A DNA stretch of 27,950 nucleotides, from positions 1 to 27,950 of the IMG/VR virus record IMGVR_UViG_3300037557_000403, one strand, 5' to 3'. The DNA comes from a virus. The translations under genes were made by a program, and so were the position numbers. The notes below the pieces were generated by a model that searched no databases, was not told the origin of the DNA, and saw only the letters and a list, made by a program, of their open reading frames with translations. Shown in pieces: positions 12,234 through 27,941 of this stretch; the first letter of the stretch is position 1; each line of letters opens with the position of its first letter.

Positions 12234-12870
12234 TCATGTAGATCTTGAATTTGAAGAATTAAATGCTACCACCACAAATGGATCCAGAGTTTATCAAACC
12301 CCTGACGGATCCTTTCCATCCATTACAACAGTATTAGGTAGAAAAAAAGCTCAATTCTTTAAAGAGTGGAGAGCTAGAATTGGTGAAGAAGAAGCCAATA
12401 AAATAACAACTCAAGCCACTCGTCGTGGAACAAAAGTACATAAAGTTGTAGAAAATTATATTTCAAATAAAGAAAATTATTTTGAAGATTCACAACCACA
12501 TGTTCAAGAGATGTTCCTTGCCATCAAACCCCACCTAGATATTAATCTTAAAAATATTGCCGGCATTGAAGTTCCATTATGGAGTAAACAATTGGGAGTT
12601 GCTGGACGTTGCGATTGCGTAGCCGATTGGAAAGGTCAAAAAGCAATTATAGATTGGAAGACTTCAGGAAAATTTAAAAAAAAAGAATGGGTTGAAGATT
12701 ATTTTCTTCAGGCGACTGCTTATACAATAATGTTTGAAGAAAGAACCAAAATCCCAATAAATAACATTGTTATAGTTATAGCAGTTGAGAATGAAGCACC
12801 TCAAATTTTTGAAGAGAAATCTTTTGATTATTGGGGGTTACTTGAAACAACACTAAAGGAATGGTTATAA
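12226..12870 (+). CDS. PD-(D/E)XK nuclease (RecB/lambda-exo-like)
   Basis: This 214-residue protein has the full set of motifs of RecB-type nucleases. They are RGTKVH at residues 68-72, Glu115 in GIEVPLWS, GRCDCVADW with Asp130, IIDWKTS with Asp143 and Lys145, and QATAY at 162-166. The order and spacing match the PD-(D/E)XK exonucleases found in many phages, which resect DNA ends for recombination or degrade host DNA. The start ATG lies inside the end of the zinc-ribbon gene and has a strong GGGGAG site eight bases upstream. Its stop forms TAATG with the following epimerase gene. Confidence 0.87.
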   Translation: MFDHVDLEFEELNATTTNGSRVYQTPDGSFPSITTVLGRKKAQFFKEWRARIGEEEANKITTQATRRGTKVHKVVENYISNKENYFEDSQPHVQEMFLAIKPHLDINLKNIAGIEVPLWSKQLGVAGRCDCVADWKGQKAIIDWKTSGKFKKKEWVEDYFLQATAYTIMFEERTKIPINNIVIVIAVENEAPQIFEEKSFDYWGLLETTLKEWL

Positions 12871-13655
12871 TGAAAATATTAATAACCGGAGTCAAAGGAT
12901 TTATTGGCCATCATTTATATATGCTTTTATCTGAAGAAGGTCATGATGTTTACGGTATTGATAATTGTTCGGGACTAGGTTGGGAAGATCGCGATGTTCC
13001 TCACTCTGATTGTGACATCACTACAGATCCTCTCCCCCATGTTGATGCAGATGTTGTGGTTCATTTAGCTGCAAGAGCTGGTGTTCGTAATAGTTGGGAA
13101 CCAAAACATTTAAAAGATTATTATAATGTAAATATTATTGGAACTAAGCGCATTTTTGAAACTTATAAAAAATCTAAAATCTTATATGCATCGAGTTCTT
13201 CTGTTTCGGATATGAAAAGTCCTTACGCAATGACAAAAGGAGCCTGTGAAGCAATGGCGCCACCTAATGCTATAGGAATGAGATTCTTTACAGTTTGGGG
13301 TCCTAAGTCGCGGCCCGATATGTTTTATAGACAATTACAAGAAGGAAAAATTAATTATTTAACAACTCACACGAGAGATTGGTTATATGTAAAAGATTGT
13401 GTAAAAGCTATATATTTACTTATGACAGAAACACCCGTATGGAAAAAATTTCCTAAAGTTTTTGATATTGGATATGGAACACCTAAATCAGTTTATGATT
13501 TTGCTAATGAACATTCACCGAAATCTATTGATATCGATTCAATAGATTTTAAAAATGTAACGGGCGAGAGCGAAGAAACTTGTGCCAATCCAACTGAAAT
13601 AAAAAAGTTGGGCTGGAAAATTGGATTCGCGAGTGATGATTTTAATGTAGAATAA
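12870..13655 (+). CDS. NAD-dependent nucleotide-sugar epimerase/dehydratase
   Basis: This 261-residue short-chain dehydrogenase of the extended (GalE/RfaD) type has an N-terminal Rossmann loop ILITGVKGFIGHHL at residues 3-16, VVVHLAARAGVR at about 70, ASSSSV at about 106, and the catalytic YAMTK (YxxxK) at about 118-122. These enzymes epimerise or dehydrate nucleotide sugars. At 261 residues it is shorter than GalE or the heptose epimerase HldD (about 310-340), with a compact C-terminal substrate domain. It could complete the heptose-type pathway encoded at 7149-9184 or provide a sugar for the downstream island; substrate is unknown. ATG 12870 uses the TAATG overlap; ATG 12861 in frame adds three residues. 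Confidence 0.86.
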   Translation: MKILITGVKGFIGHHLYMLLSEEGHDVYGIDNCSGLGWEDRDVPHSDCDITTDPLPHVDADVVVHLAARAGVRNSWEPKHLKDYYNVNIIGTKRIFETYKKSKILYASSSSVSDMKSPYAMTKGACEAMAPPNAIGMRFFTVWGPKSRPDMFYRQLQEGKINYLTTHTRDWLYVKDCVKAIYLLMTETPVWKKFPKVFDIGYGTPKSVYDFANEHSPKSIDIDSIDFKNVTGESEETCANPTEIKKLGWKIGFASDDFNVE

Positions 13656-14800
13656 TGTTATGTAGTTACCCCTTTAAACAAATTACAATTAGAGATTGGG
13701 ATGGAGATAAAGTTAAATGGTTTCATCCTTGTTGTAATATGTCGCGTCCTGATTGGGAAGATCCAATGGAATGGGAAGAGACAGATCTTACCCCCGAAGA
13801 AGCTTTTAATTCAAAACAATTTAAAGAATTACGTGAAGCTTTATCTAATAATAAAAAACATCCATTTTGTAAAACTTGTTGGGATATGGAAGAAAGAGGT
13901 ATAGAATCTTTCAGAATCCATAATGATGATACTATTCCCAGAGGGAAATTAGATGTAGTTGATTTCATTTTTTCTAATAAATGTAATTTGGCTTGTAGAA
14001 TGTGTGATCCTCAAACAAGTCATAGATTGATGTTAGATTATGAATTCTTTAGCAAAGCTGGCTTACTTCATGAAGTTGAAGAATCTACATCTGGTAAATT
14101 TAGAGGGAGGATTACAATTCCCAAAACTTCTAATTCAAAACAATTTCTTTGGCTTTTAAATAATCCCTTAAAGGAACTTAGGTTTAGTGGCGGAGAACCT
14201 TTCTTTGATGCGCAGGTTATAAAACTTCTTGATAAATATATTGATAAAGGTTGGGCCCAAAATACTATTCTCGCGTATCATACTAATGGTACAATGTTTA
14301 ATCCCACTTTGATAAATAAATTAAATAAGTTTAAAAAGCAATATCCTAAATTGAGTATAGATGCGGTTGAAGAATGTTACGAATATATAAGACATCCTCA
14401 ATCATTTGATGAATTAGACAGGACTATAAGATTATTTTTAAAAACTTCTACAAATTTGGGAAGAATTAATGTTGCTGTTGTTGTTTCAGCACTAAATATT
14501 TTAGATTTACATGAACACTGGCAATGGTGTTGCTCTTTACCTAAGAAAGTTTATATTTCATATTGCGAAGTGTATCCAGTTGACCGAGGCATAAGCCCAA
14601 TACATTTAAGTAGACAATTATTAGAAAATGTTCCTCGGATAGATTCAAAAAAATTTAATCAAATTCGTAATTCATATTTTAAAAGAAATTCAGAAAATAA
14701 AAGTAAAATACTTAAAGAAATTACATTATTTGATTATTCACGAAATCAAAAATTTCAAGATTATTTACATCCACATTTAACCCAGTGGTTAACAAAATAA
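13655..14800 (+). CDS. Radical SAM protein with N-terminal twitch-like Cys region (copy A)
   Basis: This 381-residue protein has the radical-SAM cluster motif CNLACRMC (Cys110, 114, 117) and the SAM-contacting FSGGEPFFD at about residue 178. Before the core is a Cys-rich N-terminal region (Cys3, HPCC at 25-27, CKTCW at 72-76) of the type seen in 'N-terminal twitch' radical-SAM proteins, where it probably binds an extra Fe-S cluster. Such enzymes cleave SAM to a deoxyadenosyl radical; the substrate here is unknown. The C-terminal half, with VVVSALNILDL, VYPVDRGIS and FQDYLHPHLTQWL, is shared closely with the protein at 25909-26958. It opens the island and starts in a TAATG overlap. Confidence 0.9.
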   Translation: MLCSYPFKQITIRDWDGDKVKWFHPCCNMSRPDWEDPMEWEETDLTPEEAFNSKQFKELREALSNNKKHPFCKTCWDMEERGIESFRIHNDDTIPRGKLDVVDFIFSNKCNLACRMCDPQTSHRLMLDYEFFSKAGLLHEVEESTSGKFRGRITIPKTSNSKQFLWLLNNPLKELRFSGGEPFFDAQVIKLLDKYIDKGWAQNTILAYHTNGTMFNPTLINKLNKFKKQYPKLSIDAVEECYEYIRHPQSFDELDRTIRLFLKTSTNLGRINVAVVVSALNILDLHEHWQWCCSLPKKVYISYCEVYPVDRGISPIHLSRQLLENVPRIDSKKFNQIRNSYFKRNSENKSKILKEITLFDYSRNQKFQDYLHPHLTQWLTK

Positions 14801-14808
14801 GGAAAAGA

Positions 14809-15225
14809 ATGTCACATATAAATTTTAAAATGGCCGGACAAAATGCGATTGAAGGTGGATATGAAGATATGAGACACTTCAAACGAGAACACCTTCTAGA
14901 TACTCCAGCTTATGTTGATGATACTGGAATTCTAGAAAAATTCGAAGATAAGCTAACCAATTCTATAATAACATGTAATGAAGTTTTTGTTCCTACAGAA
15001 AATGCATCATATCATAAATTAGTAATTGATACACCTTCTGATGAATTGATAGATGAGCTCAAATCAGCAATAGATGCAACGGCCAGTTGGAATCTTGTAA
15101 ATATTTCTTATGTAAATGATGAAGAATTTGCTGCGGCTAGCGATGGGATGACCCTGATGGCTTGTTGTGGAAATTGCGCTTCAGGTACAGAATTAGTTGC
15201 GGTTACTTTATCTTGTCGTCAATAA
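14809..15225 (+). CDS. 138-aa protein with Cys-rich C-terminal tail, unknown function (candidate substrate)
   Basis: I recognise no family. The first 110 residues are ordinary soluble sequence (MSHINFKMAGQNAIEGGYED; a helix around DELIDELKSAIDA at 78-90). The end is unusual: from about residue 113 it reads GMTLMACCGNCASG and then TELVAVTLSCRQ, with Cys119, 120, 123 and 136. Apart from Cys56, all its cysteines lie in the last 20 residues. It lies directly after a radical-SAM gene and has a clear AAGGA ribosome site ending six bases before ATG 14809; an upstream in-frame ATG at 14785 is less likely. The tail could be a modification target (leader-core layout) or a metal/Fe-S ligand set. Neither is proven. 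Confidence 0.75.
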   Translation: MSHINFKMAGQNAIEGGYEDMRHFKREHLLDTPAYVDDTGILEKFEDKLTNSIITCNEVFVPTENASYHKLVIDTPSDELIDELKSAIDATASWNLVNISYVNDEEFAAASDGMTLMACCGNCASGTELVAVTLSCRQ

Positions 15226-15237
15226 ACAATGAAATAA

Positions 15238-16290
15238 GTGATAATTGAAATAGATAGAATAAAATATCAAACTATTCAAGATTTGTTATTAGATTATGTT
15301 TTTATAAAACAACCTACTTCCAAACAAATTATATTTTTAGATTTGAACGAAGCTGGCCATTATTATCCCTACTCTACTACTCAGCTTTGGAAATTTAATA
15401 GTTTATATTATATCTATAAAAATCTCCATATAAAAAATTATAAGAATACTTATTTTTATAATAATGATATTAATTTAGACCACAATCATAATCAATTAAA
15501 AAACTTAATACAAACAAAGGAAAGCATCAATGTTAAGAGTTTTCCGTGGTATACTGTTTGTAGGGGGTTTAAAAGAGGTGATTTTGTTTTTAAAAATGTT
15601 AATAAGGGAATATTATATAATGTTATTTTTATGTGCGGTGAGCAAAGATTAAATAGACTTATGATATTAAATGCGCTTCACGAATATGATAATTTTGCTT
15701 ATTCTAATAGAGTGCCCAGAATAGAAGACCCGAAACCTATTACCTCACTTGATTTTTTGGATGATGATAATCTTTTTGTTAATGGAATAAAAACAAATTC
15801 TGATGTAATCACACCTAACTTTGTATTCAGAAAAGGTTCTTGGTGTACATCTATTAAAAAAGAACTGACAGAGAGAAAAGATATAAACATATTAGGAGAT
15901 ACGCCTCAAGAATATCTTTATTCAGGAATTGAATTAGTCGGAGAAAGTTATACAGATAAAGGATGTTGTCTAACGGAAAAAGTTTTAAAACCATTATATT
16001 ATAAAAAACCTTTTATCTCTATGGCAAGTAAAGGGTATCATACTTTTCTTAAAAATCAAGGATTCTATTTGTATGATGAACTTTTTGATTATAGCTTTGA
16101 TAATAGTCCGTTTAAAATTAGATTTAATTCTCTCATGGACCAAATGAAAAATATTTTAAAACTTCCAACAAAAAAATTGAAAAGTAAAATAAATAATATT
16201 AAATATAAATTAGATCATAATCATAAATTAATTAAACAAAGAATAGAAGAAAACAATTTTTGTTTAGATGTGAAAAACATTCATGATTAA
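15238..16290 (+). CDS. Glycosyltransferase-like protein (fucosyltransferase-type C-terminus)
   Basis: This 350-residue protein is very AT-rich at DNA level and rich in Asn, Lys, Tyr and Ile. The recognisable part is the C-terminal third: ELVGESYTDKGCCLTEKVLK followed by PLYYKKPFISMASKGYHTFL and the LYDELFDYSFD segment. This resembles the E..TEK...P...G.PF pattern of GT10-type and related phage glycosyltransferases. The N-terminal 200 residues are not recognisable. The start is GTG at 15238 without a visible ribosome site, 12 bases after the preceding stop; the first in-frame ATGs lie far inside. It overlaps the next gene by eight bases. Its place in the island suggests that glycosylation may be one of the steps. 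Confidence 0.55.
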   Translation: MIIEIDRIKYQTIQDLLLDYVFIKQPTSKQIIFLDLNEAGHYYPYSTTQLWKFNSLYYIYKNLHIKNYKNTYFYNNDINLDHNHNQLKNLIQTKESINVKSFPWYTVCRGFKRGDFVFKNVNKGILYNVIFMCGEQRLNRLMILNALHEYDNFAYSNRVPRIEDPKPITSLDFLDDDNLFVNGIKTNSDVITPNFVFRKGSWCTSIKKELTERKDINILGDTPQEYLYSGIELVGESYTDKGCCLTEKVLKPLYYKKPFISMASKGYHTFLKNQGFYLYDELFDYSFDNSPFKIRFNSLMDQMKNILKLPTKKLKSKINNIKYKLDHNHKLIKQRIEENNFCLDVKNIHD

Positions 16291-17362
16291 AATAGACACT
16301 ACAATTACAATTCCTAATAAGAATTTTAATTCTAAAAAAGATTGGAAGGATTATACGGTTTCTAATTTCGTTCCAGAGGGTGCTGACCCCTTGCGGGTTT
16401 ATAATTTTAAACAAATGGAAAAATATGGTGATGGATTTTTCTATTTAATATTTCATAAACCAAATATAGGTATATTAAATCATATCTATCAAACTTATGA
16501 AGAGTATGAACAAAGTATAAAATTAAGAAATGATCAAAAGGAATTATTTGAATCTAATAATATGGTTTATAATATTTCTGAACCTTATGAAATTAATGAT
16601 AGCATTTTAACAAAAGATCAATATCAAAATTTACATACTACTAATTTAGTTCCATTAGATATTAAAATTAATGTCGATTCTTTTTTATTAGAAATTGAAA
16701 GATATAATGATAATTTTTTTAGATGGGGAGATAGATATAAGGAATATCCCAGATACGCAATACCATTAGTTAATCTAAATGGAAAATTAGATAATGACTT
16801 GGAACCATCTTGTTACCCTTTAGATAGATGGAATTTTTTACAAACTGGTCTAGAGGATAATGCTGAAAATTTTACCGATTATGTATTCAATATGAGCCAT
16901 TTTGAAAAAGATAATGATATTTTATTTGAAACAAGTTTTAAGGCGCAGACAGAATTAATGAATTTTAGAAGTTTAAAAGTATTAGAACCCATTAAAGAAT
17001 ATATGGTGCGTTCATGTATTTTTAAATGGCATTCAATGGGCCACCTTTTACCACATTTTGATACATGGCACCCTACAAAATGGTTAAGACTTTGGGGAAC
17101 AACAAACCCTGAAAAAATGAAATTCAGATATAAGGTTTGTTCTTATCCTTTTGAAGGAGATGAAGGAATTGTTGATAATAAGATGTCTGGTTTAATAGAA
17201 AAATATGAAACTGAAAAAAATATTGAAGAAGGCAGACTATATTTACATGATAGTTTGAAATGGCATGATGCATTTGCATTTGATGATAATGTTTATCAAT
17301 TCTTTATTGCATTAAATGTTAACAGTTACGATTGTATTGAGAAATTAAAATATGTTAGATAA
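16283..17362 (+). CDS. Probable 2-oxoglutarate/Fe(II)-type oxygenase (Asp/Asn hydroxylase-like)
   Basis: This 359-residue protein has an N-terminal part of unknown type. Its C-terminal domain looks like a double-stranded beta-helix dioxygenase: HLLPHFDTWHPTKWLRLWG gives the HxD pair (His258, Asp260). After a spacer, LYLHDSLKWHDAFAFDDN gives a distal His328, followed by the strand YQFFIALNV. The WLRL and WHDAFA contexts recall aspartyl/asparaginyl beta-hydroxylase-like folds. If correct, it would hydroxylate (or otherwise oxidise) a substrate with Fe(II), 2-oxoglutarate and oxygen. The residue binding 2-oxoglutarate is not evident by eye. It overlaps the next radical-SAM gene by 11 bases. Confidence 0.55.
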   Translation: MIKIDTTITIPNKNFNSKKDWKDYTVSNFVPEGADPLRVYNFKQMEKYGDGFFYLIFHKPNIGILNHIYQTYEEYEQSIKLRNDQKELFESNNMVYNISEPYEINDSILTKDQYQNLHTTNLVPLDIKINVDSFLLEIERYNDNFFRWGDRYKEYPRYAIPLVNLNGKLDNDLEPSCYPLDRWNFLQTGLEDNAENFTDYVFNMSHFEKDNDILFETSFKAQTELMNFRSLKVLEPIKEYMVRSCIFKWHSMGHLLPHFDTWHPTKWLRLWGTTNPEKMKFRYKVCSYPFEGDEGIVDNKMSGLIEKYETEKNIEEGRLYLHDSLKWHDAFAFDDNVYQFFIALNVNSYDCIEKLKYVR

Positions 17363-18776
17363 AGACCCGGATAATTTACCATCAGAAACTTTTTGTGCAT
17401 TACCTTGGATGCATCTTTCTACTCGACCGAATGGACATATGAGAGTTTGTTGTACTGCAAATGCGTCCGCGGTACAAGATAAAAATTCAACAAATAAAAC
17501 ATTATCTGAAGCAGGAGTTCTTCGGAGAGATGATGGAAAGCCTGCTAATTTAGCAACAACAAGTTTACTAGATGCATGGAATAATGAATATATGAAATCC
17601 GTGCGAAAAATGATGCTTAGAGGTGAGCGGCCTGCATCTTGTTTAAAATGTTTTAAGGAGGAAGACGCAGGACACAGATCAAAACGGAAATGGGAAACTG
17701 CAAAATGGGTTAATGAGCTTGGGCTCGAAGAAGTTATTGGCCAAACCAAAGAAGACGGTTCCGTTCCACCTAAAGTACGTTATATTGACCTCCGGCTCGG
17801 CAGCAAGTGTAATCTTGCTTGCGTTATGTGTAGTCCTCACGATTCTTCTAAATGGGTAAAAGAATATAAACAAATTTGGCCGGCTTTAGAAAATAAAAGG
17901 CTCAAGGCCAGCATGGAGTGGGAAAAAGAATCTGGTAAATTGGCATGGTCAGGTGGTTCATATGCATGGCATAAGAAGAATCCAGAGTTTTGGGAAGATT
18001 TTTATAAACAAGTTCCTACACTAAGACAATTATATTGGGCTGGCGGCGAATCTTTAATTATGAGTGAGCATTATGAAGTCCTTGAAAAAATTATTGAAAT
18101 GGGATTTGCTAAAAATATTGAATTGCGTTATAATTCAAATGGTATTGAATGGCAACCAGAATTATTTGATTTATGGAAAGAATATAAGAATGTAATTTTT
18201 CATTTTAGTATTGATGATTATGGAGAACGAAATCACTATATTAGATATCCGGCAATGTGGAAAAGAGTTGTTAAACAATTACATAAAATCGATGACTATC
18301 CGCACGGCAATTTAAGATTAACAACAGCAACGTGTATCACAGCATTAAATATTTTTTATCTGCCAGAATTTATTACTTGGAAATTGGAAGAGGATTGGAA
18401 ATTATTAAACAAGTATCCAGCCGGTGCCGGCATGATAGATTTACACCTTGCATATTGGCCGCCGCAATTGAACTGTAAAGTATTACCAGATTGGTTTAAA
18501 AAAGAAACGACTTTAAAGTATCAAGATTTCGGAAAATGGTTAAAAAGTAATTTTCAGAAATGTAATGGTGTAGAAAGTTTAACATGGAATGAATGGAAAG
18601 AGCTACCATATGGAATTAAAAGATTAGAAGGTCTAGTTTCTTTTATGAATGCAGAAGATTGGTCGGAAAGATTACCCGAAACGAATGAATGGTGCTATAA
18701 GGTATCAAAGGAAAGAGGTTTAGATTTCGATAAAATTTTTCCAGATTTGGAATGGTTGAAAATGTATGGAAATTAA
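17352..18776 (+). CDS. Radical SAM protein with N-terminal twitch domain (copy C)
   Basis: At 474 residues this is the longest radical-SAM protein of the island. The N-terminus is a textbook twitch-type region: FCALPWMHLSTRPNGHMRVC followed by a second Cys, then ASCLKC (Cys15, 33, 34, 97, 100). The radical-SAM motif CNLACVMC is at Cys153, 157, 160. The SAM motif reads AGGESLIM, with Ser in place of the usual Pro. A Trp-rich insertion (about residues 185-225) and a long C-terminal region without further Cys pairs follow. This is not a simple copy of its neighbours and may act on a different position or substrate. It overlaps both neighbours by 11 bases. Confidence 0.9.
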   Translation: MLDKDPDNLPSETFCALPWMHLSTRPNGHMRVCCTANASAVQDKNSTNKTLSEAGVLRRDDGKPANLATTSLLDAWNNEYMKSVRKMMLRGERPASCLKCFKEEDAGHRSKRKWETAKWVNELGLEEVIGQTKEDGSVPPKVRYIDLRLGSKCNLACVMCSPHDSSKWVKEYKQIWPALENKRLKASMEWEKESGKLAWSGGSYAWHKKNPEFWEDFYKQVPTLRQLYWAGGESLIMSEHYEVLEKIIEMGFAKNIELRYNSNGIEWQPELFDLWKEYKNVIFHFSIDDYGERNHYIRYPAMWKRVVKQLHKIDDYPHGNLRLTTATCITALNIFYLPEFITWKLEEDWKLLNKYPAGAGMIDLHLAYWPPQLNCKVLPDWFKKETTLKYQDFGKWLKSNFQKCNGVESLTWNEWKELPYGIKRLEGLVSFMNAEDWSERLPETNEWCYKVSKERGLDFDKIFPDLEWLKMYGN

Positions 18777-19425
18777 AGAATACTGTAAGCGATATAGTGA
18801 TATTGTTCCAATAGAACATACCTTTAAAGAGCATAGGCTAATGATTTGTCCTTATGCCGATCATGAACATAAAATAAATCCGATAGGTTATAAATTTCCC
18901 GAGAGCGGTCTTAAAAATATAAGTTATTATAGAGATTGTTCAGATGTTGATCATCATGATCCGTTTTTTGGGGACATTGATTTTATGGATGAAGTATTGT
19001 GTTTAGATTATAAATTAATTGATAAAGCAATAGATAATCCTAATACTATGAATTTTTTGTTAGCATTTATAAACAATAGACAATCATTAAAACTTTTACA
19101 TTTAGTTAATTTTTGGCAAGCCCTTATACCGTCTAAAAGTTGGGACCATTTTTGTGATTTTATAAATGATACATCTATAAATGATGGAACATATCTTGAA
19201 ATACATAATAAAGATCCTAAAGAATCAATAGAAGTTTGTTTAAATGAAATATTAAAACTTGATTTAAATAAATTTATTGGAGTGGATTATTCACATCTAG
19301 ATGGTGAACCAAAATATGTACCCATAAAGAATAACGTTAATGAAAATATTGGTATTATTTTTGATTCAACTTCAAATCCTTATGGTCATGGAGATATTAT
19401 AAATGAAAATAGAAGATCAAAGTAA
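18766..19425 (+). CDS. Unknown 219-aa protein of the radical-SAM island
   Basis: No family is recognised. The protein is soluble and acidic, with scattered His/Cys residues: LMICPYADHEHK at about 26-37, CSDVDHHDPFFGDIDF at about 58-73, SWDHFCDF at about 125. These could bind metal, but no known motif forms. A central helical part (DYKLIDKAIDNPNTMNFLLA) and a C-terminal DFVDYSHL-like acidic segment are also seen. It overlaps the preceding radical-SAM gene by 11 bases and the following one by 23 bases, so it is almost certainly translated with them. A partner protein, carrier or further enzyme of the pathway are possible roles. Confidence 0.75.
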   Translation: MEIKEYCKRYSDIVPIEHTFKEHRLMICPYADHEHKINPIGYKFPESGLKNISYYRDCSDVDHHDPFFGDIDFMDEVLCLDYKLIDKAIDNPNTMNFLLAFINNRQSLKLLHLVNFWQALIPSKSWDHFCDFINDTSINDGTYLEIHNKDPKESIEVCLNEILKLDLNKFIGVDYSHLDGEPKYVPIKNNVNENIGIIFDSTSNPYGHGDIINENRRSK

Positions 19426-20548
19426 TAGATATCAAATAATATGGGATCTCGGTAGAAGATGTTCATATGCATGTTCTTATTGTCCTCCTCATAGAAATAA
19501 TAAGACATCTGCCTTTGTAAATTATGAAACTTTATGCAAGTCTATGGACGGCGTTGCGGAATATGCATTACTTTATGATTCATTTAGAAAAAAACCCGCT
19601 AAGAAAAAATTAAGTTTTACGGGAGGGGAACCCACTGTTCATCCCGGTTTTTTTAAATTTCTAAAATACGTAAAAAGTGAATATCCAGATTTCAGTAGAG
19701 GATTAACAACTAATGGATGGTTTAATGATAGGGTCACAGATAAAGTTATATCATTGACTACGGGCGGAACCCTGTCTTATCATTGCGAATCAACAAAGAA
19801 GCAAAAAGAACAAGTAATATCAAATGCAATAGCTTTAAGGGAAAAATATAAAGTCAATGTGATGTTCCATAAAGATTATTTTAAGGAATGCGTAGATGTT
19901 TGTGAAAAGTTAGAAAAAAATAGTGTAGATTTTATTCCTAGGATCATAGGAGATGATAATCCAAATGACAAAAAATCTATTGAGTTAGGTTATACTCATA
20001 TATATGATAGAGAGCAAATGAAATGGTTTCGAAATTATTGGAAACAGAAAGGGCAATCTGTCACAGAAAAAGGAAACAGTCAAACCGGGCTTGGTCGACC
20101 TTGCTGCGGGGGTAGAAGCTTCAAAGTTGATGGTGTGGATACTTTTTTCCTTCCTAGCACTAATTTTTTGGGTTGGAATTGTATGGTCAATTGGTATTTT
20201 CTTTTTTTAAACTCCGAACTTGATGCGGTTTATACTCATCAAACATGTGGAGTTAATTTAGAAGGAAAAGTTGCACCATTAGGTAAGATTTCAGAATTTG
20301 ACAAAATTATTGATAGTTTAGAACATGAATTATATGTACATAATAAAGTACCGATGATAACATGTCCTAAAACTTTCTGTGGATGTGGTATGTGCATAAC
20401 AAAAACCAGTCAAAATATTGAACCTATGTTTACAAAGCATGTAGTTGAAGGTCTTACATATGATGTTGTTTCTCAAAAAGAAAGTAATTGGGAATCAGAC
20501 CTAACCGTTAAAAAATTATTTTTGGAAAATAATGGGATCCCTCAGTAA
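19403..20548 (+). CDS. Radical SAM protein with C-terminal Cys clusters (SPASM/twitch-like, copy D)
   Basis: This 381-residue protein differs from the other six in the island. The radical-SAM motif CSYACSYC (Cys20, 24, 27) sits at the very N-terminus, preceded by the strand IIWDLGRRC, and LSFTGGEPTVHP follows at about 70-81. The extra cysteines are at the C-terminal side: RPCCGG at about 232, GWNC, HQTCGVN, and finally TCPKTFCGCGMC. This is the pattern of SPASM/twitch auxiliary Fe-S domains, common in enzymes that modify peptides, sugars or tRNA. Its substrate is unknown. Translation probably couples to the upstream gene (23-base overlap) and to the downstream one (17-base overlap). Confidence 0.88.
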   Translation: MKIEDQSNRYQIIWDLGRRCSYACSYCPPHRNNKTSAFVNYETLCKSMDGVAEYALLYDSFRKKPAKKKLSFTGGEPTVHPGFFKFLKYVKSEYPDFSRGLTTNGWFNDRVTDKVISLTTGGTLSYHCESTKKQKEQVISNAIALREKYKVNVMFHKDYFKECVDVCEKLEKNSVDFIPRIIGDDNPNDKKSIELGYTHIYDREQMKWFRNYWKQKGQSVTEKGNSQTGLGRPCCGGRSFKVDGVDTFFLPSTNFLGWNCMVNWYFLFLNSELDAVYTHQTCGVNLEGKVAPLGKISEFDKIIDSLEHELYVHNKVPMITCPKTFCGCGMCITKTSQNIEPMFTKHVVEGLTYDVVSQKESNWESDLTVKKLFLENNGIPQ

Positions 20549-21818
20549 AGCTGAAAAAATGGATGATACCACATTATTATCCAATGACGTTACAAAAATC
20601 AAAAGCGAATTACATAAGCAAGAAAAATACAAATATTTGTGTAAGGCGTTATGGAATACTATACAGCAAGATGTTCAATCTGAAATAAAGCCTTGTTGTG
20701 TTTTTTGTGAAAGGCCAATCCCGAGAGAAAAATATGATAATTTAAATGATGCGTTTTTCGGAAATGAATTAGATGTAATCAGACAAAAAATGTTAGACGG
20801 CGAAAAGATTAGCGGCTGCAATGGTTGTTATATTGGAGAAGAAGCTGGCGAATGGACATTAAGGAATCATTTTAATAATAGTTATGATGATTCTACAATT
20901 AATAATCCACAGATTAGGGATTTAGAAATTTCTCTTGATAATAATTGTAATTTTAAATGTGTAACGTGCAGTGCAAAATTTAGCACGGCTTGGTATGAAG
21001 ATGATAATAATATTCTTGAACAAACCAATTTAATTCGGCAATCAGCTCAATCAATTAAAACACAAACTCCTTTGATAAAAAATATTTCTGATTTATCAAA
21101 AATTAATTATGAACATGTAAGAAGTATAAGAATGCCTGGCGGTGAACCATTCATGAATAAAGAAATTTTAGAATGGTTATCGTCAATTGATTTATCAAAT
21201 ATTGAATTAACAATAATCACAAATAATTCTATCTTTCCTAAAAAATGGATTAAGACACTTAAAACTGCTAAAAAATTTAGATTAATAATTAGTTGTGATG
21301 GTGTTGGAGAAGTTGGTGAATTTGTTAGATATGGGATGAAGCAAAAAGTATTTTCAAAAAATTTAAAAAAATGGCAAGAAATTCAAACCAACAGAATGAT
21401 GATTAGTTTTAATTATGTTGTTCATGCGATGAATGTTTTGAATGTTGAGAAAACTTATAATTGGATTAGGGAGATGGGTGTTGACGAAAGCCAATATAAC
21501 TGGTATAATAAAATGATGAACGCACCTAAATGGGATTTTATAATAATGGCAATTGATAGATTATATTTTCCAGAGTATATTGATTTAAGATATTTGCCTG
21601 TTGAAACAAAAGAATTAATTCATGAACATTATGATAAGATGGGCCCTCTTGATGGTAGAATTAAAAATAAAATTTTAAAGTGGATGGATACCGGTGAAAC
21701 AAATGTTGATAGAAATAAGGATTTTATAACCTATTGTGATTTTCTTGAAGGAAGACGTTCTATTTTGCCCCAAGAAACAGAAATAATTTACAACAGTGTT
21801 TTGAGAAATTTCTTATGA
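20532..21818 (+). CDS. Radical SAM protein with N-terminal twitch-like Cys region (copy B1)
   Basis: This 428-residue protein has an N-terminal Cys region (Cys37, 55, 56 in IKPCCVFCE, and CNGC at 96-99) and the radical-SAM motif CNFKCVTC (Cys139, 143, 146). IRMPGGEPFM follows at about residue 200. The core is strikingly like the protein at 24242-25378: both have TNNSxFPKKWI, a DGVxxVGEFVR segment and a similar C-terminal ILPQETE/IPEQCE end. Compared with that copy, it has about 30 extra N-terminal residues. It directly precedes halogenase 1 with an ATGA overlap. ATG 20532 is supported by GGA five bases upstream; ATG 20559 is the alternative. Confidence 0.9.
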   Translation: MGSLSKAEKMDDTTLLSNDVTKIKSELHKQEKYKYLCKALWNTIQQDVQSEIKPCCVFCERPIPREKYDNLNDAFFGNELDVIRQKMLDGEKISGCNGCYIGEEAGEWTLRNHFNNSYDDSTINNPQIRDLEISLDNNCNFKCVTCSAKFSTAWYEDDNNILEQTNLIRQSAQSIKTQTPLIKNISDLSKINYEHVRSIRMPGGEPFMNKEILEWLSSIDLSNIELTIITNNSIFPKKWIKTLKTAKKFRLIISCDGVGEVGEFVRYGMKQKVFSKNLKKWQEIQTNRMMISFNYVVHAMNVLNVEKTYNWIREMGVDESQYNWYNKMMNAPKWDFIIMAIDRLYFPEYIDLRYLPVETKELIHEHYDKMGPLDGRIKNKILKWMDTGETNVDRNKDFITYCDFLEGRRSILPQETEIIYNSVLRNFL

Positions 21819-23020
21819 AAATTTGTATTATAGGCGGCGGCACTACTGGCTGGTGGGCAGCAAAATATTTAGAACAAAAAATGCCCGATGCTAATATTAC
21901 ATTATATGAAGATCCAAAAATTTCTCCAGTAGGCGTAGGAGAATCTACACTGCCACAGATTGGAGTTTTTTTAAAAGAATGTGGTCTTGAAGAAAAACTA
22001 TGGATGTCCAAGACAAATGCAATTTTTAAAAAAGGTTCTCATAAAAAAAATTGGGATAAAATAAATGGAGATGCGTGTAATTTTGCTTTTTGGTATAACG
22101 ATGAATATAAATTTGAATCTTGGATTAAAGAATATTTTAAAGGCAATAAAACAAAAAATGATTTAGGACTTGATTTATATAAGAAGGATGGATTTTGTGA
22201 ATATGCTTATCACCTAGATGCTAATTTAATAGGACAAGTAGTTAAAGATCAATGTAAAAATGTAAAACATGAATTAATTAGACTCGAGGGATTACCAGCT
22301 GGCTATGATTTTTATATAGATGCGACAGGGTTTAAACGGAAATTTACTAAAGACAAAACTTTAATTAAATTTAAAGATCATTTAGTAAATAGTTGTTGGG
22401 CAGGAAATCTTCAAAGAAAAGGTGAACCATATCCGTATACAAAAAGTATTGCAAGAAATGCTGGTTGGACATTTGGAATAGATTTAACTAACAGAACTGG
22501 AATAGGATATGTATATAGTAATAATCACATATCTAAAGAAGAAGCTTTAGATGAGTTTAAATCGTATTATCCAGAAGCATATGATATAAGAAATTATGTA
22601 TGGGAACCTGGCTATTTAAAAAATCCATGGAAAGATAATGTTATTTCTATAGGCAATGCCGGCGGGTTTTTAGATCCCTTAGAATCCAATAATCTTTTTA
22701 TGATTCAATTATCTATTACTAAAATACCAGACACGATATTAAAAAATTATAGACCAGAATCATATAATAGATTACTTAATAGAACATGGGCGCACGTTAG
22801 TAATTATATATTACATCATTATAAATTATCTAATAGAACAGATACTTCGTTTTGGAAATATTATTCAAAATTTAATGTTAAAGAGTCTATCTGGCAAGCA
22901 TATAATTTTCATGGCAACAAATATACAACAATCTTTCCTAATTCGCTTTGGTCTAACTTGGCCTTATATTATGACGAATTTACTTACTATAATCAATATA
23001 AACATTCTGAGGTAATATGA
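21815..23020 (+). CDS. Flavin-dependent halogenase 1 (tryptophan-halogenase family)
   Basis: This 401-residue protein would use FADH2, oxygen and halide to make hypohalous acid and halogenate an electron-rich substrate. The FAD loop is IIGGGTTGWW at residues 5-14. GVGESTLPQIG at 40-50 and the lysine of AIFKKG (Lys72) match the catalytic Lys region of PrnA. GWTFGIDL (Trp218, Phe220) replaces the WxWxIP motif, and GFLDPLESNN keeps the Glu-Ser pair (Glu290, Ser291). It is shorter than PrnA (538 residues) and closer in size to the viral halogenase VirX1 of cyanophage Syn10, reported as an iodinase. It needs a flavin reductase, which is not in the window. Confidence 0.9.
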   Translation: MKICIIGGGTTGWWAAKYLEQKMPDANITLYEDPKISPVGVGESTLPQIGVFLKECGLEEKLWMSKTNAIFKKGSHKKNWDKINGDACNFAFWYNDEYKFESWIKEYFKGNKTKNDLGLDLYKKDGFCEYAYHLDANLIGQVVKDQCKNVKHELIRLEGLPAGYDFYIDATGFKRKFTKDKTLIKFKDHLVNSCWAGNLQRKGEPYPYTKSIARNAGWTFGIDLTNRTGIGYVYSNNHISKEEALDEFKSYYPEAYDIRNYVWEPGYLKNPWKDNVISIGNAGGFLDPLESNNLFMIQLSITKIPDTILKNYRPESYNRLLNRTWAHVSNYILHHYKLSNRTDTSFWKYYSKFNVKESIWQAYNFHGNKYTTIFPNSLWSNLALYYDEFTYYNQYKHSEVI

Positions 23021-24249
23021 AAATTTGTATAATTGGAGGTGGGTGCTCCGGTTGGTGGGCTGCGGGCTATTTAGAAAAATTTGTACCAGATATTAAAATT
23101 ACATTAATTGAGAGCGAAGATATTCCAACTATAGGAGTAGGTGAATCAACACTACCTCAAATAGGTCATTTTTTTGAGGAATTAGGAATACTTGAATCTG
23201 ATTGGATGGAACAGGCGGAAGCGATTCACAAATATGGAAATATAAAACAGGGCTGGGATCATAAAGACGCACCTGAGTTTGCCATGACTTTTTGGTATAA
23301 TGATAATAATGCATTTGATGAATGGGCAAAAGATTACTTTGCAGGTAAAAAAACCGGAAAACCAGATGAAGAACTTAATAAAGATTTATATGATGATGCC
23401 GCCTGGAGAGCAGTCGCCCACCATTTCGATGCCGGAGAAAGTATTAATATAGTAAAAGATACATGCAAAAATGTAGAACATATAATTGATACTATTACTG
23501 AACTACCGCCCGGATATGATTTGTATCTTGATTGTACAGGATTGGCGCAGAAGTTTGTAAAAGATAAAACACGCTTACCCTTAACAGAAGGACACCTAAT
23601 AGATAGTGTTTGGGTTTGCCCTTTTGAATTAAGTGATGAAGATGTACCCCGGAACTATACCAGATCTATAGCAAGAGATGCGGGATGGCAATTTATAATT
23701 AATTTGGAAGAAAGAGCGGGCATTGGTTATGTATACAGTAGTAAGTATGTGAGTGATGATGATGCATTAGTATACTATAAAGATTTAACTAAAGGTAGAA
23801 TACCGTGGGGAGCATTTCCATGCACGCCGACCATACAACCAAAATTGATTAAATGGGATCCACATTATCTTGCAAATCCTTGGAGTGATAATGTTATAGC
23901 ACTGGGCCTTTCGAACGGATTAGTTGATCCCCTAGAAGCAAATGTATTGTATACGACTGTATATGGTATTCAAACGCTCGCTAAATGTTTAAACAGAGGT
24001 TATGGGGCCCGCGCATATAACAAAGCAGTATCTAAATTGCATTATGAAAATAGTGATTTTATTTTACATCATTACATGTTAAGTAACAGAACAGATACTC
24101 CTTTTTGGGAATATTATTCTAAATGTGATGTTAGAAAAACATTATGGGAAAATTATAGGAGATGCGGCGACAAACATGCAAATTTATATCCCGATGCTAT
24201 ATGGGCAACATTGGGTGTGTATTTTAATGAGTTTACATATTATGAATAA
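23017..24249 (+). CDS. Flavin-dependent halogenase 2, divergent active site
   Basis: This 410-residue paralogue of halogenase 1 starts in an ATGA overlap with it. The FAD loop IIGGGCSGWW and GVGESTLPQIG are intact. The putative catalytic lysine is kept but in a changed context, AIHKYG (Lys72), and the WxWxIP region reads GWQFIINL (Trp224, Phe226). The halide/active-site loop reads GLVDPLEANV, so the Glu is kept (Glu307) but the following Ser is Ala308. It is probably active, though halide choice or substrate could differ from halogenase 1. An insert at about residues 112-128 and the RIPWGAFPCT segment at 261-270 distinguish it. It overlaps the next radical-SAM gene by eight bases. Confidence 0.88.
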   Translation: MKICIIGGGCSGWWAAGYLEKFVPDIKITLIESEDIPTIGVGESTLPQIGHFFEELGILESDWMEQAEAIHKYGNIKQGWDHKDAPEFAMTFWYNDNNAFDEWAKDYFAGKKTGKPDEELNKDLYDDAAWRAVAHHFDAGESINIVKDTCKNVEHIIDTITELPPGYDLYLDCTGLAQKFVKDKTRLPLTEGHLIDSVWVCPFELSDEDVPRNYTRSIARDAGWQFIINLEERAGIGYVYSSKYVSDDDALVYYKDLTKGRIPWGAFPCTPTIQPKLIKWDPHYLANPWSDNVIALGLSNGLVDPLEANVLYTTVYGIQTLAKCLNRGYGARAYNKAVSKLHYENSDFILHHYMLSNRTDTPFWEYYSKCDVRKTLWENYRRCGDKHANLYPDAIWATLGVYFNEFTYYE

Positions 24250-25378
24250 AAGTCTTTGTTTAGCACCTTGGAATCATATTCAAATCAATGCAGAAGGTGT
24301 AGTTAATCCCTGCTGTATGTTTTATCCCACTGTGTATCATAAAAAGTATAATAATTTACAAGAAGCATTTGATGGTTCAGAAAATAAAGAACTGAGACAA
24401 AGAATGTTAAATGGTGAAAAAATCGAAGGATGTCATAAATGTGATTTATATGAAAGCCTGGATAAGTTTTCGTATAGAGAATATTTTAAAATGCAATATG
24501 ATAAATCAACTTTTAAGAATCCTAAAATACGAGAATTAGAATTCGCGCTTGATAATACTTGTAATTTTAAATGTATAACTTGCAATTCTAGATTTAGTTC
24601 AAAATGGTATGATGATGATTTAGAATTAAATAAAATAGGAATAAAAAGAAATTCACAAGCAATAAAAACAAAAACTCAAGTTGTTAAAAATGTTAATAAT
24701 TTAGATGATTTAGATTTAAGTGAATTGAGATTTCTAAAATTAATCGGTGGAGAGCCATTTATAAATGATAATTATATTGATGTCCTTAAAAAATTAAATT
24801 TAAAAAATATAGAATTGGCATTAATTACAAATAATTCTGTGTTTCCAAAAAAGTGGATAGAATATATTTTAAAAGTAAATCAGTTGAGTCTACGTATAAG
24901 TATAGATGGTGTATATGATGTTGGTGAATTTGTCAGAAACGGAATGAACTTTGAAAAATTTACTAAAAATTTAATCCAATGGAAAGAATTATCTGAAGAA
25001 CATGACAATATTGATATAAAGTTTAATTTTGTTGTTCACTCATTAAATGTATTAAATTTGAAATCTACTATAGAATATTTAAAAGATTTGGGATTTGTTA
25101 TCGATGTGAATCACACAAAAGATGAGATTTTAGAAGTGGATTTTTTAAATGAACCAGAGTATATTAATTTATCATATTTACCAGATCGATTAAAAAACAT
25201 TGTAGAGGAAAAATTAGATTTTAATTTGAATGGTAAACGAAATATGATAGTTGATTTTATGTATTCAAATAAACATGATGACAAAATTATGAAAGATTTT
25301 TTAAAATATTGTATATTTTTAGAAGAACGAAAAACCATTCCTGAACAATGTGAATTCATGGTGAGTAATGCATTCTGA
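24242..25378 (+). CDS. Radical SAM protein with N-terminal twitch domain (copy B2)
   Basis: This 378-residue protein has a clear twitch-type N-terminus: CLAPWNHIQINAEGVVNPCC (Cys6, 24, 25) with CHKC at 64-67. The radical-SAM motif is CNFKCITC (Cys107, 111, 114), then LIGGEPFI at about 163. It is the closest relative of the protein at 20532-21818, with matching TNNSVFPKKWI, DGVYDVGEFVR and FNFVVHSLNVL segments. ATG 24242 gives a normal family N-terminus; the reading frame is open further upstream within the halogenase gene, but that extension is only a shadow. It overlaps halogenase 2 by eight bases and the next gene by 11. It lacks the extra N-terminal residues of copy B1. Confidence 0.9.
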   Translation: MNKSLCLAPWNHIQINAEGVVNPCCMFYPTVYHKKYNNLQEAFDGSENKELRQRMLNGEKIEGCHKCDLYESLDKFSYREYFKMQYDKSTFKNPKIRELEFALDNTCNFKCITCNSRFSSKWYDDDLELNKIGIKRNSQAIKTKTQVVKNVNNLDDLDLSELRFLKLIGGEPFINDNYIDVLKKLNLKNIELALITNNSVFPKKWIEYILKVNQLSLRISIDGVYDVGEFVRNGMNFEKFTKNLIQWKELSEEHDNIDIKFNFVVHSLNVLNLKSTIEYLKDLGFVIDVNHTKDEILEVDFLNEPEYINLSYLPDRLKNIVEEKLDFNLNGKRNMIVDFMYSNKHDDKIMKDFLKYCIFLEERKTIPEQCEFMVSNAF

Positions 25379-25922
25379 ATATCTTTATCCAAACGTGCAT
25401 GATGATATAGTTTTAGATTTTTGTAATAAATGCGATGATTTAAATTATATGAATAATAACTCCTTTGAATCAATGAAATGGTATTGGGGAGAAGTTCGAT
25501 GGGTGGGAACATTTATAGATGATGTATTAGTTTCCCTAAGTGGGATCCATAAGTTTCCAGAAATAGATGAAAATTCATTTAGAATGATGTTCAGAGGCGC
25601 TTCATTACCAGGAGTAAAGGTTCCTTTAAATATTAGAACTACCCCAGTAAGACGACATTCGAATAAAGATGGTAGTTTCAAATTATTTGTAAATTTTCAA
25701 CAAATGCCTCTACAACAAAAATGGGCATATGAACAGAATGAAAACGCAACATTTTATGTAACATTTAATATAGATCCTATGATAAGTACAGGTGCATATT
25801 CTAAAGTCGGAGACAAAAGTAAGAATATGATTCGCGCAGTAAGACGTCATTGTAAAAATATTGGTTATCATGGTAAGATGAACATTTATAATGTAGAGCA
25901 AGAAGTTTATGTCTTATTGTAG
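25368..25922 (+). CDS. Unknown 184-aa protein of the radical-SAM island
   Basis: No family name can be given. It is a soluble alpha/beta-looking protein: MHSEYLYPNVHDDI, WYWGEVRWVGTFIDDVLVSL at about 39-58, then RMMFRGASLPGVKVPLNIRT at about 72-91, FYVTFNIDPMISTG at about 142, and a C-terminal basic helix KNMIRAVRRHCKNIGY. The pattern of an introductory helix, hairpin with VRWVG, RMMFRGA strand and FYVTFN strand recalls GNAT-like small phage proteins, but no acetyl-CoA loop is obvious. It overlaps neighbouring radical-SAM genes by 11 bases upstream and 14 bases downstream, so it is co-translated with them and probably belongs to the same pathway. Confidence 0.75.
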   Translation: MHSEYLYPNVHDDIVLDFCNKCDDLNYMNNNSFESMKWYWGEVRWVGTFIDDVLVSLSGIHKFPEIDENSFRMMFRGASLPGVKVPLNIRTTPVRRHSNKDGSFKLFVNFQQMPLQQKWAYEQNENATFYVTFNIDPMISTGAYSKVGDKSKNMIRAVRRHCKNIGYHGKMNIYNVEQEVYVLL

Positions 25923-26958
25923 TCTACCATTTAAACAAGTTGTAATGAAGAACTTTGATGGTAACGGATGTTCTCGGTTTCTTCCGTGCAGCCACATATT
26001 GAAGTCTGAAGTAGAAGATGCTTGCACTGTTAGACCAATGAAAGGGAAGCTAAACCTTACCCCGGAAGAAGGTTTTGGTCTTTATCAGGATGTGCGTGAC
26101 GGTATGATGAAAGGCGAACGGCCTGAACTATGTAAGGTTTGTTGGGACAAGGAAGATAAAGGTAAGACATCGTACAGACAAAAAATTGATAAGTTCGTTG
26201 AGGATAGTGAAAAATTTGTCATTGATATAAATTGTGGTAACGTCTGTAATCTAGCTTGTAGAATGTGTGCACCGGGACTGAGTAGGAAACTTAAAAAAGA
26301 TTATAACTACTTTGTTGAACACGGTCTTGATTTTAAAACTCCCACCGATGACTTCTTTACCATAGATCTGAACCCTGACCCAATAAATTCCTTACAATGG
26401 AAATGGATTACAGAAAATACAGATAAGATAGGCGGCCTCAAGTTAGCAGGTGGGGAACCATTGGTAAATAAATCCGTAATTTCCTTGTTTCGGAAAATGG
26501 TAAGTGATGGAATAAGTAAAGATATTAATTTAAGTTTTTATACAAATGGATTAGAAATATCAAATCATACAGAATTATTAAATCAGTTTAAAGGTGTATA
26601 TGCAAATTTTTCCGTAGAGGCTATCGGAGAGTTATACCACTATATTCGATATCCGGGAATTTTTGAAGACTTCGATTTTAATGTTAAATATTTTATGGCG
26701 AAAAGTACTAACCTAAAAGACCTAGCATTTAATGTCGTAGTATCAGTGTTAAATGTTCTTGATCTTGATTCTCTCAAAGAATGGCTGCCTACGGATAATG
26801 TAGGATATGTAAATGTGTTTCCTGAAGATCGGGGAATAAGTGTAAAGCATCTATGGAAAGATAGGGAAAAAGTTTTAAGTGAAATCCTTTTATTTGATAA
26901 ATCTAGAAATCAAAATTATAAAGATTTTCTGCACCCAGATTTAGTAAAGTGGCTATGA
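25909..26958 (+). CDS. Radical SAM protein with N-terminal twitch-like Cys region (copy A2)
   Basis: This 349-residue protein is a clear relative of the one at 13655-14800: SLPFKQVVMKNFDGN matches its SYPFKQITIRDWDGD, and VVVSVLNVLDL, PEDRGIS and YKDFLHPDLVKWL match its C-terminal half. The radical-SAM motif is CNLACRMC (Cys113, 117, 120), and LAGGEPLVN follows. The N-terminal Cys set is Cys4, Cys27 and CKVC at 75-78, but the PCC of copy A is PCS here, so one potential ligand is absent. It ends in ATGA overlap with the next radical-SAM gene. Base composition in the first third is less AT-rich than in copy A. Confidence 0.9.
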   Translation: MSYCSLPFKQVVMKNFDGNGCSRFLPCSHILKSEVEDACTVRPMKGKLNLTPEEGFGLYQDVRDGMMKGERPELCKVCWDKEDKGKTSYRQKIDKFVEDSEKFVIDINCGNVCNLACRMCAPGLSRKLKKDYNYFVEHGLDFKTPTDDFFTIDLNPDPINSLQWKWITENTDKIGGLKLAGGEPLVNKSVISLFRKMVSDGISKDINLSFYTNGLEISNHTELLNQFKGVYANFSVEAIGELYHYIRYPGIFEDFDFNVKYFMAKSTNLKDLAFNVVVSVLNVLDLDSLKEWLPTDNVGYVNVFPEDRGISVKHLWKDREKVLSEILLFDKSRNQNYKDFLHPDLVKWL

Positions 26959-27941
26959 GTTGTTATTATAGTCATAGTTCAATAAGTTTTAAATCTCAAT
27001 ATTCTACACATTGTGCTTTTAATTCCGATCCTCTTTGTTCATTCGAAGAAACGATATTACCTTCTGAAATTATAAAGTCTAAGGGATTCCAAAAAAGTAG
27101 AAAAATACTTGATAATGATAACTGGCCTTCTGGATGTGATCACTGCAGGCTGCCGGAATTGAAATCTTTAACTTCCTCCAGACATGATCATCCCATAGAG
27201 CATAAAAATTTAGAAAGAATTGAAATAAGATTTTCAAATGCTTGTAACATGACATGTTTACATTGCGGCCCAGAATTTTCAAGTCTATGGGCTAAAAAAT
27301 TAAATTATTCGGGTCCGGTATTGGGATTATCTTCCGAACAGGTTTTAAAAATATGTGAAGATTTAAAAAATATTCCAACAATACGAAGAGTTGTTTTATC
27401 GGGCGGTGAACCCCTAGTAAATAAGAATTTTTATAAATGTGCGGACAGCTTATCAGAACATCCGCAAGCTAGTGAGATGGTTGTATCTTTTCATACAAAT
27501 TTAAATCCCGGCTTGCCGATAGATTTTGATCATATAAATTCAACTTTTGGAAAATTTAAAGAAGCTTATGTGGTAGTGTCAATTGATGGAGGCAAAGATC
27601 TTTATCCTATTTTTAGAGGAGGAGATTGGAAAACATTAGTACATAATATTGATAAAGCTCTATGTATGAATATTAATGTTGATGCTACTATGAGTCTTAC
27701 AACTTATCAAATGAATGATATAAAAAATTGTTATCTAGATGTTTTACCTTTTGGGTTCAGAGAATTGAGAACAATGTATATTAATTCACCAGAAGAATTT
27801 GACCCGAAGCATGCAGTGAATGATGAAACAATGAAAAATTATAATTTTGTTTTAGATCATATTAGAGATAATTATTCAGGAAGTTTGCATGACTCTGCTT
27901 TATGGTACCTAAATATCTGTAAGGAGCGATTACTACGATGA
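26955..27941 (+). CDS. Radical SAM protein with reduced N-terminal Cys region (copy E)
   Basis: This 328-residue protein starts MSCYYSHSSISFKSQ and lacks the CC pair of the other twitch-type copies; Cys20, Cys28 and CDHC at 61-64 remain. The radical-SAM motif is CNMTCLHC (Cys97, 101, 104), followed by VVLSGGEPLVNK and VVVSIDGGKDLYPIFRGG, a typical strand for the substrate side. It is the last and smallest of the series. ATG 26955 overlaps the previous stop as ATGA; a GTG six bases upstream is an alternative. Its stop overlaps yet another start at 27938, preceded by AAGGAG, so the operon continues past the window. Confidence 0.87.
   Translation: MSCYYSHSSISFKSQYSTHCAFNSDPLCSFEETILPSEIIKSKGFQKSRKILDNDNWPSGCDHCRLPELKSLTSSRHDHPIEHKNLERIEIRFSNACNMTCLHCGPEFSSLWAKKLNYSGPVLGLSSEQVLKICEDLKNIPTIRRVVLSGGEPLVNKNFYKCADSLSEHPQASEMVVSFHTNLNPGLPIDFDHINSTFGKFKEAYVVVSIDGGKDLYPIFRGGDWKTLVHNIDKALCMNINVDATMSLTTYQMNDIKNCYLDVLPFGFRELRTMYINSPEEFDPKHAVNDETMKNYNFVLDHIRDNYSGSLHDSALWYLNICKERLLR

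Follow-up and report, generated by a model that had tools for sequence, protein, structure and literature searches.

A radical-SAM-rich gene island with paired halogenases in a viral DNA fragment

What might a virus make with a set of enzymes large enough for a natural-product pathway? The question is raised by virus record IMGVR_UViG_3300037557_000403, which was analysed in its entirety (27,950 bases, referred to here as the window). From position 13655 to 27941, 14 genes on the + strand encode seven radical S-adenosylmethionine (rSAM) proteins (RS1 to RS7), two halogenases (HAL1 and HAL2), a 2-oxoglutarate (2OG) oxygenase (OX) and proteins with no function or a motif-based function, namely a 146-aa protein, a glycosyltransferase-like protein (GT), U219 and a GNAT-like protein; all features given below by window coordinates lie on this strand. 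An earlier reading of the letters without database searches (the sequence-only reading) had taken this region for pathway-sized biosynthetic gene content carried by a phage, and our searches supported that view. The genes belong to an island that is exchanged between T4-like marine phages, and we tentatively read it as a pathway for a variable, sugar-containing surface decoration.

Enzymes encoded in the island

Searches against Pfam and NCBIfam gave seven PF04055 matches in the window, six of them above the Pfam cut-off; RS6, at 27.4 versus 29.5 bits, fell below it yet exceeded the NCBIfam N_Twi_rSAM cut-off. All seven proteins showed an intact CX3CX2C motif and the rSAM barrel profile and thus belong to the superfamily, as the sequence-only reading had held. 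Membership of the twitch family, for which it had suggested a search, was borne out for RS1, RS2, RS4, RS5 and RS6, which carry an N-terminal four-Cys twitch and exceed the curated cut-off (170 bits) of NF033640 (N_Twi_rSAM), a model named for an architecture and not for a reaction. Specifically, RS1 (13655..14800; PF04055; 203 bits) is a border gene that travels with the backbone (90% identity in contig G001, 86% in G011), while RS2 (17352..18776; 405 bits) is a conserved core protein with 79–90% identity in the nearest marine phages and about 50% in Bdellovibrionia. RS4 (20532..21818; 224 bits) and RS5 (24242..25378; 247 bits) are 40% identical to each other, and RS6 (25909..26958; 193 bits) was found at 84–89% in two contigs. 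The start of RS5 is most likely ATG 24242, as had been proposed against a listed open reading frame beginning with GTG at 24125, which we trimmed. The family does not include RS3 (19403..20548; PF04055; NF033640 27 bits), a second core protein (72–92% in 15 contigs, 45% in one further) that lacks the N-terminal twitch domain and has a Cys-rich, SPASM-like C-terminus. RS7 (26949..27941; PF04055 E 1e-11; 92% in locus L142), which may start at GTG 26949 or ATG 26955, is of a divergent twitch type and at 130 bits remained under the cut-off.

Recent tandem duplication was rejected as the origin of the seven genes, most pairs being just 20–28% identical; the closest pairs were RS4/RS5 and RS1/RS6 (35%). 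A viperin or defence reading was likewise dropped, as the window proteins scanned gave weak matches only (at most 45 bits versus a cut-off of 180).

The possibility that most of these genes are inactive remnants, which the sequence-only reading had named as grounds against itself, was not borne out. Simple NG86 estimates of dN/dS against L028, L034, L119 and L049, in which several dS values were near saturation, lay between 0.06 (RS6) and 0.27 for the rSAM genes, except for RS4 versus L034 (0.46 at 44% identity). The codon changes thus show purifying selection. The CX3CX2C motif was also intact in 290/290 viral rSAM proteins of at least 300 aa found by profile, a count that is biased by the profile's own preference for the motif and in which overlapping loci enter more than once.

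The two predicted flavin-dependent halogenases were confirmed as members of the tryptophan-halogenase family on sequence criteria (PF04820 above cut-off, GxGxxG, catalytic Lys and Glu). HAL1 (21815..23020; PF04820, Trp_halogenase, E 4e-71) matched VirX1, PrnA and RebH; HAL2 (23017..24249; E 7e-63) is 44% identical to HAL1 and has an 83% identical counterpart in L142 that also adjoins RS5. The catalytic residues Lys72 and Glu290 were invariant across 14 phage sequences, and the GWxWxIP motif is altered to GWTFGID and GWQFIIN. Compared with the listed halogenases of isolated phages, HAL1 and HAL2 reached at most about 28% identity.

The HxD...H oxygenase candidate, OX (16283..17362), also held up. 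Its residues H258, D260 and H328 were invariant in 10/10 sequences, and its structure model (pLDDT 80), a double-stranded beta-helix, gave Foldseek matches to 4p7w, AspH, 7v4o, proline hydroxylases and HygX from hygromycin B biosynthesis. We therefore predict an Fe(II)/2OG oxygenase of the AspH/proline-hydroxylase fold, in which the Arg that usually follows the last His and binds 2OG lacks conservation.

Borders, exchange and relatives of the island

Viral contigs were searched with RS2, RS3, a halogenase and other island proteins, and 18 related contigs were examined whole. These carried between 2 and 22 PF04055 genes each (the one with two ends inside RS2), and halogenases were present in 8/18. 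On the left, the same backbone runs in G001, G002 and G011 through an NAD-dependent epimerase gene to RS1, where the island begins; in the window this epimerase (12861..13655; PF01370 E 3e-25) is 92% identical to its counterpart in G001 and 69% to that in G002, adjoining RS1 in both. At the other end, GT-like and unknown genes in G001, G002 and G029 are followed by QueC-like, amidotransferase-like, dCTP-deaminase-like and single-stranded-DNA-binding-like genes, labels that were assigned by motif; QueC-like, glutamine-amidotransferase-like and dCTP-deaminase-like genes also stand at the right island border in L118:2214-4046 and L131:10985-12848. Judged from these borders, the full island would span roughly 30–40 kb, from the epimerase gene to the ssDNA-binding and nucleotide genes. 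The span 13655–27941 described in the sequence-only reading covers just the left end of this island, whose content is swapped between phages.

The gene order, which the sequence-only reading had advised looking for in marine virus contigs, was indeed conserved in independent ones. G029 (L142) matched HAL2-RS5-GNAT-RS6-RS7 at 80–92% in the same order. Beyond RS7 it encodes TauD-like, AMP-binding-like and QueC-like proteins together with a further ten rSAM proteins, which brings its rSAM genes to 13 in all. A phage carrying RS1 to RS4 of the window together with the G029 set would have about 17 rSAM genes, a figure drawn from collinearity rather than observed. G008 was collinear with the window over ten genes at 82% (GT), 75% (OX), 81% (RS2), 94% (U219), 82% (RS3), 44% (RS4), 75% (RS5), 56% (GNAT-like), 84% (RS6) and 67% identity (RS7), lacking the halogenases.

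The backbone proteins of G008 are only 29–52% identical to those of the window, whereas those of G001 are 71–93% identical, and yet past RS1 only RS2 and RS3 are shared with G001 at high identity; OX is at 42% and no GT, U219 or GNAT match exceeded the threshold. OX stood at 42% where RNase H stood at 93%, and at 75% where RNase H stood at 46%. Because G001 is alike in backbone and different in island, and G008 is distant in backbone and collinear in island, the identity pattern fits cassette transfer between distant phages. Comparison of the contigs shows that T4-like marine phages swap cassettes of island content at a single fixed location in their genomes, the several rSAM genes moving as a block as in the exchangeable module of Campylobacter phage CP220. 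RS2 and RS3 kept 76–92% identity in the five larger contigs compared, and may therefore be slow-evolving core genes.

For the halogenases, the sequence-only reading failed by its own test of independent occurrence: in seven of the ten contigs of their closest relatives, the halogenase lies in a phage contig without an rSAM gene. The RS4-HAL1-HAL2 junction was present in this window alone among the contigs compared.

Beyond rSAM genes, the related islands encode DegT aminotransferases (7/18 contigs) and class-I aminotransferases, a carbamoyltransferase, an FkbM methyltransferase, cytidylyl- and nucleotidyltransferases (CTP_transf_3, NTP_transferase) and amidinotransferase-like proteins, as well as TauD, PhyH, AspH, AMP-binding, nitroreductase and aldo-keto reductase proteins and a B12-dependent rSAM protein of KedN5 type. 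Long proteins (1138–1185 aa) with a Glycos_transf_2 domain were found in two contigs. One contig encodes, downstream of the island, a pair of very long proteins of glycosyltransferase type (1184 and 894 aa; L135:1406-7631). Small stand-alone twitch-like proteins without an rSAM barrel (L123:48-643, L125:1665-2263 and L037:5639-5995) adjoin short rSAM proteins, with which they possibly form split enzymes.

The enzyme core is also found in bacteria. RS2 homologues (47–55%) occur in Bdellovibrionia and related contigs of metagenome-assembled genomes (MAGs), and 20 such loci contained a CNYxCSYC rSAM gene (17/20), a CNAxCPMC rSAM gene (17/20) and a GT-A-like gene (10/20). In L089, L094, L096, L101 and other Bdellovibrionia loci, three rSAM genes and a GT-A-like gene form a conserved set on the chromosome that is homologous to the core of the phage island. 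These loci, all from MAGs, usually held 3–9 rSAM genes in the stretch fetched, and no halogenase was noted in them. Two further MAG contigs, L084 (PBYV01000081) and L085 (PAAV01000055), labelled Acidimicrobiaceae and Chloroflexi, show phage-like rSAM arrays with RS2 at 78–89% and are probably mis-binned phage DNA.

Possible products of the island

We consider it possible, if short of probable, that the island is an exchangeable pathway for a variable, sugar-containing surface decoration. Most likely, its overlapping genes would be read during infection in a single long stretch. Radical-SAM C–H chemistry, oxygenation by the 2OG oxygenase, halogenation and transfer would then act successively on a shared building block containing a sugar or amino sugar, which glycosyltransferase-like proteins would attach to a surface, either a host envelope glycan or the virion. 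Different cassettes would yield different decorations and so alter recognition by competing phages. A glycan-like decoration seems more likely than a peptide because the DegT, CTP_transf_3, NTP_transferase, FkbM, carbamoyltransferase and amidinotransferase-like genes of related islands typify glycan or aminoglycoside-like pathways. The same is suggested by the sugar-activation genes of the backbone, the long Glycos_transf_2 proteins, the sugar-transferase-like genes of the CP220 module and the HygX match of OX, as well as by the finding of no RRE (recognition element) or PqqD domain of ribosomally synthesised and post-translationally modified peptide (RiPP) pathways in any of the 18 related contigs, many RiPP classes having no detectable one. 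Other observations count against such a product. Most characterised SPASM and twitch rSAM relatives act on peptides; the usual substrates of flavin halogenases are aromatic rings, not sugars. The AMP-binding, nitroreductase and TauD genes equally fit small-molecule or amino-acid chemistry, the Glycos_transf_2 domain exceeded its cut-off in just 2/18 contigs, and several glycosyltransferase calls are based on motifs only.

Peptide or protein modification, in which the twitch/SPASM rSAM proteins, the halogenases and the AspH-like oxygenase would act on a ribosomal substrate such as the 146-aa protein or a virion protein, is unlikely in our estimate. Among PDB sequences, the RS2 profile matched the peptide maturase SkfB best (weakly, E 0.003), many weak NCBIfam matches of island proteins are RiPP maturases, and OX resembles Asp and Pro hydroxylases. 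The 146-aa protein (14785..15225, its start perhaps at ATG 14809), which has a Cys-rich tail, ACCGNCASGTELVAVTLSC, and no confident family match, is a possible substrate or precursor, and a weak relative in L034 (hmm E 1e-7) keeps its position with a different, Cys-free tail. However, its relatives were limited to L026–L028 (72–100%) and L034, just four other contigs although rSAM arrays are common, and its structure model is poor and places a strand in the tail. After two types of search we retained it as a RiPP precursor only within this rival, which is further weakened by the missing PqqD/RRE domains and by the content of the window, where neither a protease nor a transporter of RiPP type was seen. 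A diffusible halogenated metabolite acting on the host or on competitors would explain the halogenase pair and the AMP-binding, nitroreductase, TauD, PhyH, KedN5-type B12-rSAM and carbamoyltransferase genes of related islands; as no polyketide synthase, non-ribosomal peptide synthetase or export gene was seen and halogenases occur in only 8/18 related contigs, we regard it as unlikely.

Alternatively, there may be no single pathway, the hypervariable region merely gathering independent modules of one or two genes that each act alone. The halogenases in contigs without rSAM genes and the strong differences in content between closely related backbones agree with this, but the order of ten genes kept in G008 despite its distant backbone, the five kept in L142, and the recurrence of a conserved core (RS2, RS3, the right-end rSAM trio and a GT-like gene) make it rather improbable. 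Hypermodification of the phage DNA is the least credible explanation and seems very improbable. Known cases of DNA hypermodification in phages include radical-SAM and glycosyl steps, and QueC-like and glutamine-amidotransferase-like genes stand at the right border; these, however, belong to the backbone and not to the cassette, the island yielded no known marker of base hypermodification, and its strong variation in content would need a different base in each phage.

In its widest form, the surface-decoration reading would have marine T4-like phages trade a complete natural-product-scale pathway, with up to about 17 rSAM enzymes plus halogenases in one gene run and a core in common with bacteria, for a variable and possibly halogenated decoration. 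This is doubtful as a whole; if true, the pathway would be among the most radical-SAM-rich known in any genome. Should all of the genes contribute to a single product, a large and so far unread store of radical-SAM chemistry would lie in viruses, and the pathways in the collinear cassettes stand ready for expression and assay.

Precedents and genomic setting

Where the sequence-only reading knew of single twitch rSAM genes in marine phages, phages with whole rSAM modules had already been described. The Campylobacter phages CP220 and CPt10, described in 2010, carry 11–12 rSAM genes and an interchangeable five-gene rSAM module (PMC2853527). Our own search gave 11 PF04055 matches in CP220, whose module holds five rSAM genes, an amidinotransferase gene and two nucleotide-diphospho-sugar transferase-like genes. 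The likeness to the present island lies in a T4-related phage with a swappable module of five rSAM genes and an amidinotransferase, joined in CP220 by the sugar-transferase-like genes; the CP220 amidinotransferase is 30%, and several of its rSAM proteins 25–33%, identical to island proteins. The Campylobacter phages differ in having fewer rSAM genes in one block, and no halogenase was found in CP220. In tblastn searches, RS3 matched nothing in the phage collection, and no Campylobacter phage gave a match to RS2. Pelagimyophages, which are T4-like and marine, have a hypervariable region (HRC) of about 45 kb with glycosyltransferases, for which the surface role considered here has also been proposed, and rSAM cassettes that are gained and lost (PMC7029224). 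That paper touches on the rSAM cassettes briefly and leaves halogenases unmentioned (PMC7029224). Known marine viral halogenases (VirX1, and the cyanophage and HTVC008M singletons) belong to the same Trp_halogenase fold family, VirX1 being among our PDB matches, whereas in the window two halogenase genes stand side by side within a series of rSAM genes. In the Pelagibacter phage HTVC008M, the halogenase gene (L140, 63763-65157) lies between those for the small and large terminase subunits. The literature searched, with subscription papers outside its coverage, nowhere described rSAM arrays with halogenases in phages. A recurrent marine-phage island type thus extends an isolated Campylobacter-phage observation and a passing remark on pelagimyophages, adding conserved borders, an enzyme core that also occurs in Bdellovibrionia, and exchangeable halogenases.

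Judged from its gene content, the window comes from a T4-like marine myophage, of whose genome it represents a 28-kb piece. Its left half encodes a primase-like frame, ThyX, a B12-type ribonucleotide reductase, a T4-type RNase H (nearest to Methylophilales phage Melnitz and cyanomyophages, 44–46%), DUF6433, a cell-wall hydrolase, a PD-(D/E)XK nuclease, sugar-activation genes and the epimerase. The sugar genes (5273..9184) have Pfam matches to a pyruvyl-transferase-like protein, a group 1 glycosyltransferase, a cytidylyltransferase-like protein, a GHMP kinase and an SIS isomerase, and the same block is present in G002. An assembly chimera was rejected, with L026 (100%), L027 and L028 confirming the left half, L034 the middle and L142 the right half, and only the RS4-HAL1-HAL2 junction being peculiar to the window. 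A megablast search of isolated phages with the island as query gave no match, and no Rfam match to an RNA element was obtained.

The sequence-only reading had pointed to overlaps of 1–23 bases at nearly every junction. Indeed, 12 of the 13 junctions between the 14 genes overlap by 4–23 bases, the exception being a 12-base gap (15225/15238), and one base is common to the epimerase gene and the gene at 13655. Upstream backbone genes overlap equally often, so we rejected the overlaps as a hallmark of the island or as evidence for one pathway. Promoter and terminator scans of the window were close to those of shuffled sequences, and the T4 late-promoter motif TATAAATA was scarce throughout (1 versus 7.8 expected by chance); operon boundaries could therefore not be placed.

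Among the remaining island proteins, GT (15238..16290) was retained as glycosyltransferase-like by motif reading, although it had no Pfam, NCBIfam or PHROG match; it is 82–88% identical in G008 and G011 and 24–30% in four others. U219 (18766..19425) has no family match and was found at 26–34% in two other contigs; its 94% identity in L034 exceeds that of every neighbour, yet it is nearly absent from what is known elsewhere. The GNAT-like protein (25368..25922), also named by motif reading and with no family match, is 80% identical in L142 and 56% in G008. A 732-aa B12-binding rSAM-like protein at L119:5755-7953 contains a stretch resembling it, possibly as a fusion.

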